From: Erysipelothrix tonsillarum DSM 14972
GTDB lineage: Bacteria > Bacillota_I > Bacilli_A > Erysipelotrichales > Erysipelotrichaceae
NCBI RefSeq assembly: GCF_000373785.1
Contig: NZ_KB892380.1
Coordinates: 238,860-302,859, forward strand
Length of the DNA: 64,000 nt
Direction: 5' to 3'
Part shown: piece after piece, positions 44,404-52,205 of the stretch
Layout: the number at the start of each line of letters is the position of its first letter
Position numbering within the stretch: position 1 is the stretch's first letter
Notes under the pieces: generated by a model
Told to the model about the DNA's origin: nothing
Databases searched by the model: none
Seen by the model: only the letters and a program-made list of their open reading frames with translations
Program-made: the position numbers and the translations under genes

Positions 44404-44431
44404 TTGCAATTTAGGACAGTTTTGATATAAT
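44404..44431 (+). promoter_or_regulatory. Promoter of the SRP RNA gene
   Basis: TTGCAA and a perfect TATAAT are separated by 16 bases. The predicted start is about 44438, exactly where the SRP RNA stem begins. Confidence 0.75.
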
Positions 44432-44437
44432 AACTAT

Positions 44438-44521
44438 GCTACAACAACATAATCTAATTAACCAGGTCAGGGCAGGAATGCAGCAGCCTTACATTAGCTC
44501 TTATGTGTGTTGTGGCTCTTT
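44438..44521 (+). ncRNA. ffs: Signal recognition particle RNA (small 4.5S type)
   Basis: The apical domain IV is complete: GTCAGG, then a GCA-GGAA-TGC hairpin, then AGCAGCC (44466-44488), the binding site of Ffh. The two ends pair over a long helix (GCTACAACA at 44438 with TGTTGTGGC ending at 44516, plus ACATAA/TTATGT and CTAAT/ATTAG). TCTTTTTG then ends the RNA. The total of about 80 bases means it lacks the Alu domain found in Bacillus scRNA. It lies just before tadA, close to dnaX, as in relatives. Confidence 0.95.
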
Positions 44522-44535
44522 TTGTATATAAGGGG

Positions 44536-45444
44536 GTGTTTGCAATAGAACATCATCAATTTATGGAAGAAGCGTATCAAGAAGCGCTCGTTGCATACAA
44601 ACTTAATGAAGTCCCTGTTGGTGCCGTTGTTGTAATGGATGGCAAAATAATTGGTAGGGGACATAATGTTCGTGAAACGCAACATCAACCATCTGGTCAT
44701 GCAGAAATCGTTGCGATGGACCAAGCGGGTAAATATCTTGGAACCTGGAATTTGGAGGGTTGTACCTTATATGTCACGCTCGAACCGTGTGCGATGTGTG
44801 GTGGAGCTATCATGCAATCGAGAGTAAGTACAATTGTTTATGGTTCAAGCGAACCGAAAAGCGGATGTTTTGGCTCGATTATTGATTTCACTCAAATTAA
44901 TGGTTATCAACACTATCCAAATGTGATTCGTGGTGTTGAGGAAGAAAAAACAAGAAAACTAATGCTCGATTTTTTTAAACAACAGCGAAATAATAAAATA
45001 AAAATAAAAAAAATAGATGAAACGCTTTTTGAAGATTATCTTGAAGTGCGCAAAAAGGTATTCGTCGATGAACAAGGGATTGATCCTCAAGAAGAATACG
45101 ACGTTTATGATGTGTTGGACAATCCTACTGTGCATCATATTGCAGCGATACAATATGGCTCCGTCGTTGGAACAATGCGTTTATATTGCTATGATAAGAA
45201 AATGAAGCTAGGGCGACTTGCGGTCTTAGTTTCACACCGAAATCAAAAAATCGCATCACGTTTAATTCGCTATGCGGTCATTCAAGCTGAAAACAATGGC
45301 TATAATAGTATTGAATTGAATGCACAACATCAAGCAATAGCATTATATCTTAAACATGGATTTGAGATTGTTGGGAGTCCTTTTGAGGAAGCGGGAATTC
45401 AACATTACAAAATGATTAAACAAATAAAAAAGCCAATACTTTAG
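44536..45444 (+). CDS. tadA: tRNA adenosine(34) deaminase TadA fused to a GNAT acetyltransferase
   Basis: Residues 1-150 are TadA, which converts A34 to inosine in tRNA-Arg(ACG). The zinc and catalytic residues are present: HAE at 55-57 and PCAMC with Cys85 and Cys88. Residues 160-302 form a separate domain of the GNAT acetyltransferase type (VRKKVFVDEQGI near 171; LGRLAVLVSHRNQKIASRLI, the acetyl-CoA loop; ALYLKHGFEIVG). The joint is a lysine/isoleucine-rich linker with no stop or restart. The start is uncertain: GTG at 44536 follows TATAAGGG, whereas the first ATG (44563) would trim 9 residues. The gene begins about 15 bases after the SRP RNA. Confidence 0.88.
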   Translation: MFAIEHHQFMEEAYQEALVAYKLNEVPVGAVVVMDGKIIGRGHNVRETQHQPSGHAEIVAMDQAGKYLGTWNLEGCTLYVTLEPCAMCGGAIMQSRVSTIVYGSSEPKSGCFGSIIDFTQINGYQHYPNVIRGVEEEKTRKLMLDFFKQQRNNKIKIKKIDETLFEDYLEVRKKVFVDEQGIDPQEEYDVYDVLDNPTVHHIAAIQYGSVVGTMRLYCYDKKMKLGRLAVLVSHRNQKIASRLIRYAVIQAENNGYNSIELNAQHQAIALYLKHGFEIVGSPFEEAGIQHYKMIKQIKKPIL

Positions 45445-52140: not shown

Positions 52141-52205
52141 CGTGCCTCCTTTTGCGAATGAATGTAATAGTGTATAATAGAATGGAAAAGTTAGAGGTGC
52201 TCAAA

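Follow-up and report, generated by a model that had tools for sequence, protein, structure and literature searches.

A TadA-GNAT gene fusion in the genus Erysipelothrix and its possible origin

Fusions between enzymes raise the question of whether the joined activities serve each other or merely travel together. In Erysipelothrix tonsillarum DSM 14972, one stop-free reading frame (44536-45444, forward strand) encodes a TadA domain and then a GNAT acetyltransferase domain in a single chain; positions are those of the window, the whole stretch of 64,000 nucleotides that was analysed. The original prediction for this locus left two readings side by side: the GNAT partner might act on tRNA, on TadA or on the decoding machinery, or the fusion might simply secure co-expression. 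Here we ask whether the fusion is real and complete, how far it extends among relatives, where the GNAT domain came from, and which of these readings fits best. The prediction named no characterised enzyme of this kind, and our search of the literature (open-licence papers only) likewise found no description of a TadA-GNAT fusion. Its statement that TadA is essential does not apply universally, as the Bacillus subtilis TadA gene, yaaJ, is dispensable (PMC10454642).

Domains and junction of the fused protein

Residues 5-151 match models of TadA-type deaminases (PF14437, E = 1.8e-40), and by far the best NCBIfam match is to TadA (NF008113, E = 9.2e-42). The closest solved structure for this half, over nearly its whole length, is Staphylococcus aureus TadA (2b3j, E = 1e-45). 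With the S. aureus enzyme (2b3j, 7cph) it shares a full-length domain, the HAE and PCxxC motifs, the FFxxxR helix, a single gene copy and the presence of tRNA-Arg(ACG); it differs in bearing a C-terminal GNAT domain and in scoring 142.7 bits against the NCBIfam cut-off of 150. H52, E54, C82 and C85 are invariant in two alignments (A1 and A3, the latter of 27 rows), as are F144 and R148 of the FFxxxR motif. AlphaFold places the TadA half at a pLDDT of about 90-98, with helix 133-151 mostly at about 90 or more; the input was a TadA-only alignment, and the GNAT half is poorly modelled (pLDDT about 30-50). The fusion is the sole TadA of its source genome; no A34 tRNA was found there besides the TadA substrate tRNA-Arg(ACG), which has two gene copies.

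The second half (residues about 157-298) matches GNAT profiles well above their gathering scores (PF13673, E = 6.5e-15, 55.7 versus 23.6 bits; PF00583, E = 1.2e-13, 51.8 versus 20.7 bits). Its closest structures, again over nearly the whole length, are S. aureus SACOL1063 (5jq4, E = 8e-18) and 1q2y (E = 1.5e-15), which we take to be B. subtilis YjcF. Similarity to ElaA/YjcF-type GNATs (these two structures and NF007644, PRK10314) spans the entire domain and includes the motifs RxxVFVxEQ, AQ..A..Y and GI.H..M, which are invariant or nearly so in the fused proteins and kept in most stand-alone ones. The fused domain differs from this type in not being free-standing and in the first glycine of the CoA loop, Q/R-x-x-G-x-G/A: the arginine and the final G/A are retained, while the first G is K in the window and mostly K, S or D in the fusions, with K, H and S also occurring in stand-alone relatives. 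The score against the ElaA equivalog NF007644 is 26.5 bits, below the cut-off of 171, so the domain is a relative rather than a member, and 'ElaA/YjcF type' merely describes resemblance. Nor is the cut-off reached for RimI, the ribosomal protein S18 acetyltransferase (TIGR01575, 24.5 versus 86.4 bits). A Pfam search of the frame returned the deaminase and GNAT domains only, with no radical SAM, helicase or RNA-binding module.

The two halves meet almost without a linker. AlphaFold extends the TadA helix to residue 151; the GNAT half starts at about residue 152. Most stand-alone TadAs of sister genera terminate 1-10 residues beyond FFxxxR, and the N-terminus of a stand-alone GNAT reads M-P-T-IRIYK where NNK-IKIKK stands in the fusion. 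This tight junction, together with the matching ends of the stand-alone proteins, indicates that two complete proteins were joined, and the length of the junction is constant across 12 species.

Features of the tadA-GNAT locus and of the ftsW-PTS interval in the window
Feature	Position	Strand	Remarks
Promoter-like site TTGCAA-16-TATAAT with TG extension	44404..44431	+	Upstream of SRP RNA; consensus match only
Small bacterial SRP RNA (RF00169)	44435..44522	+	Directly 5' of tadA; 64.9 bits (gathering 40)
Shine-Dalgarno-like AAGGGGG	44530..44536	+	8 nt before ATA; conserved in four species
Probable start codon ATA	44545..44547	+	Aligned codon ATC in three sister species, ATG in eight others
TadA domain, residues 1-151	44545..44997	+	H52-A-E54 and P81-C82-x-x-C85 (zinc/catalytic); C-terminal helix 133-151
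Junction NNK	44989..44997	+	End of TadA C-terminal helix to first GNAT strand; long linker absent
GNAT domain, ElaA/YjcF type	44998..45441	+	RxxVFVxEQ; RxxKIAS (CoA-pyrophosphate loop); NAQ..A..Y..HGF; EAGIQH
Stop codon TAG	45442..45444	+	
ftsW/PTS-EIIC gap, slot without GNAT here	52141..52199		At most about 60 nt (PTS start uncertain)

Distribution, selection and origin

An intact fusion occurs in 12 of 13 Erysipelothrix genomes, that of the window included, at 43-71% identity to the window's protein. Together with the domain and structure matches, the recurrence of the same full-length frame bears out the prediction of one uninterrupted frame with a complete TadA and a complete GNAT. A lost stop codon or frame error confined to one assembly, which the prediction had allowed for, is ruled out and may be regarded as vanishingly improbable: although the thirteenth genome (G001, a draft of about 270 contigs) has both halves broken by one frameshift, six of the 12 intact cases come from single-contig assemblies (G002, G003, G006, G009, G010, G012). 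The prediction had also envisaged relatives with two separate genes, and these do exist, outside the genus.

The fusion was absent from 58 other genera of Erysipelotrichaceae (272 family genomes searched) and from samples of the class (395 genomes) and the phylum (392 genomes), in a search tuned to the ElaA/YjcF-type GNAT, which TadA fusions with quite different GNATs could escape. A scan of genome contigs gave no match with a single-protein query; with an alignment query, the matches listed were stand-alone TadAs, with no named fusion among them. Viral contigs scanned for the GNAT gave no match.

Both halves are under purifying selection, with dN/dS of about 0.03-0.11 for the TadA half and 0.05-0.17 for the GNAT half; the closest pairs (dS < 0.7) give 0.05-0.11, and the ratios of several other pairs are rough because their dS is high. 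The notion of a dead GNAT domain is rejected in view of these low ratios and its intact motifs. No high-quality Erysipelothrix genome has lost the GNAT or separated it again. In a comparison of few genomes, mean identity of the TadA half is 51% within the genus and 52% to other genera, whereas reference genes are more alike within the genus than between genera (serS 79 versus 67%, recR 66 versus 53%, gyrA 66 versus 58%). That the TadA half is as divergent within as between genera suggests a shift in the constraints on TadA after the fusion.

Sister genera have a stand-alone TadA, and among them the nearest relatives of the GNAT domain are separate genes. The order gyrA-serS-(SRP RNA)-tadA-dnaX-recR-(EVE-like)-(CYTH)-nadK-ftsW-PTS-mutS is largely common to the window and the sister genera. 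Four of the latter (g41, g49, g57, g35) carry a GNAT gene of the same subfamily directly between the cell-division gene ftsW and the PTS gene; the separate GNAT adjoins ftsW in two others (g37, g28) and the PTS gene in another, where ftsW was not found (g5). The distance from tadA to the GNAT is about 6-9 kb in g41, g37 and g5, with both genes on one stretch, and larger in g28. The ftsW-PTS interval holds no GNAT gene in the window or in G002, G003, G005, G010 and G012. In two further genera (g9, g10) a related separate GNAT adjoins rsmG, lying between rsmG and mnmG in one genome. The suggestion that GNAT genes with the same relatives might adjoin tadA in sister genera is thus answered in two parts: the related GNATs lie apart from it, by ftsW, the PTS gene or rsmG, and a different GNAT does stand next to tadA in one genus (g8). 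In three species (L026 2021-2509, L243, L244) the latter gene occupies the tadA-dnaX interval in the same orientation, and represents an independent neighbourhood. The related GNAT of g10 is itself joined to a SAM methyltransferase domain and divergent from rsmG (L123 1038-2210, minus strand). In two species a second, ElaA-like GNAT gene precedes a gene for tRNA-Arg(ACG), the TadA substrate, by about 200 nt (L131 1884-2712, L130 1243-1979), perhaps by chance.

In the GNAT tree the fused domains form one group (78/85; 94% of bootstrap trees), which clusters with the rsmG-linked rather than the ftsW-slot GNATs (68/78). AU tests left both the ftsW slot and the rsmG position as candidate donors (p-AU 0.077 for fusion plus slot). 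The fused TadAs also fall together, with the stand-alone TadA of g10 as the only one among them, on a long branch and with modest support. On these trees and gene orders, a pre-existing GNAT was probably relocated and fused to tadA, probably once; a single event in the ancestor of the genus explains the data most simply, and we favour it without claiming strong support for it.

Start codon and expression

The coordinates originally given, 44536-45444, stand as an open frame. The GTG at 44536 is probably not its start, since it overlaps the Shine-Dalgarno-like AAGGGGG (44530-44536). The ATA at 44545 is aligned with the ATG of other species, so the protein probably has 299 residues (44545-45441). 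The three sister species with ATC at this position (L004, L005, L006) and the window all have AAGGGGG 7-8 nt upstream of the codon, and in L004 no ATG, GTG or TTG occurs from the in-frame stop to the ATC. As judged from such alignments, tadA probably starts with AUA or AUC in the window's clade.

ATT, as found in infC, is a start codon monitored by IF3, and infC of the genus has an apparent ATT start after GAGGTGAATTTT. With tadA (ATA/ATC) and infC (ATT), the genus would have two genes with IF3-type start codons. An AUA or AUC start on an RNA-modification gene, in the same genus as a classic AUU on infC, is a small and separate lead.

The gap of 22 nt between the SRP RNA and the tadA start leaves no room for a promoter, so transcription of tadA probably runs on from the SRP RNA. 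The promoter-like site 5' of the SRP RNA may possibly serve tadA in this way; promoter-like sites are no more numerous in the region than in shuffles. In many members of the family, too, the SRP RNA immediately precedes tadA, and the interval is too short, or nearly so, to hold a promoter.

Possible roles of the GNAT half

We consider it likely that the protein is two enzymes on one chain, held together for co-expression as the product of an old and conserved gene fusion. In this view a GNAT gene of ElaA/YjcF type, free-standing and situated in the same chromosome stretch in sister genera, would have moved to a place directly behind tadA and been fused to it, an in-frame junction taking the place of the tadA stop codon and the GNAT start codon. 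The N-terminal half, the cell's only TadA, would form inosine 34 in tRNA-Arg(ACG), and the C-terminal half would most likely have a small amine or an amino acid as acetyl acceptor, with no involvement of tRNA. Being fused would chiefly ensure that both are expressed together, probably by read-through from the SRP RNA, with stability or dimerisation as possible further benefits; functional coupling between the halves would be absent. The free-standing subfamily in sister genera implies that the GNAT activity predates the fusion, and a tRNA-specific role is unlikely for a domain of such free-standing descent. Among enzymes of the same structural type, one uses threonine and other amino acids as acetyl acceptors (PMC10267138).

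Both domains are already known, and a C-terminal fusion of TadA to an unrelated domain is not unique. In six loci (L064, L084, L089, L091, L093, L101) TadA is extended by an alpha/beta-hydrolase-like domain (haloalkane dehalogenase-like, assigned by eye); five of these are titled Comamonadaceae, Burkholderiales, Delftia or Betaproteobacteria, and one Alphaproteobacteria. The point of extension is the same as in Erysipelothrix, but the partner and the phylum differ and the event was independent, which indicates that such fusions need no link to tRNA. Elp3 and TmcA also carry a GNAT domain in a tRNA wobble enzyme; there GNAT chemistry acts on the tRNA base, with further RNA-acting modules. The TadA-GNAT protein resembles them in joining a GNAT to an enzyme of the wobble position, but their further RNA-acting modules are not seen in it.

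Some observations sit uneasily with simple co-expression: the short junction of constant length in 12 species implies more constraint than unrelated passengers need, the GNAT has never been lost or re-separated in the high-quality genomes of the genus, and the divergence pattern of the TadA half hints at changed constraints after the fusion. One rival reading is that the GNAT half senses acetyl-CoA, or acetylates TadA or a neighbouring subunit, and thereby ties the making of wobble inosine to metabolism. In its favour are the short, invariant junction, the altered divergence, and the position of the junction directly after the C-terminal helix, the part of TadA in contact with the anticodon stem-loop (PMC8216470). 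We nevertheless hold this coupling to be unlikely, given that the GNAT belongs to a pre-existing free-standing subfamily and that the AlphaFold model, having no usable GNAT geometry, shows no interface. Acetylation of tRNA, for example tRNA-Arg, or of a ribosomal protein or other decoding component appears quite improbable as well. The covalent link to a tRNA enzyme speaks for it, as do the GNATs beside rsmG in two sister genera (in the rsmG-mnmG interval in one genome) and the different GNAT beside tadA in g8; against it, in most sister genera where it was placed the separate GNAT adjoins ftsW or a PTS gene and no translation gene, the ElaA/YjcF-type domain has gained no RNA-binding module, and amino acids are the substrates of a related enzyme of this type.

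It is very unlikely that internal initiation or proteolysis yields TadA and GNAT as two polypeptides. The junction is A-rich in the window, but it offers no in-frame ATG, GTG or TTG there, no candidate start is conserved across species, and the GNAT's own start methionine is gone; an internal start yielding a separate GNAT was rejected on these grounds, while proteolysis, as far as sequence goes, retains a small probability. In its fullest form, coupling would have the GNAT half acetylate TadA, tRNA-Arg or a decoding factor, or sense acetyl-CoA, so that inosine formation is tied to acetyl-CoA status, with IF3 controlling translation through the AUA/AUC start in one clade; we give this combination little credence. 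Of the two readings originally left side by side, co-expression is thus favoured, the GNAT being an independent gene in sister genera, and a role on tRNA, TadA or decoding is not.

In Erysipelothrix, the fusion gives a core tRNA enzyme a conserved bifunctional architecture, and the separate genes of sister genera suggest the source of its GNAT partner. It also provides a natural experiment, in which the same kind of GNAT is free in sister genera and chained to TadA in Erysipelothrix. If the halves are coupled, wobble editing would be linked to acetyl-CoA; if they are not, the protein would be a clear case of gene fusion for co-expression.
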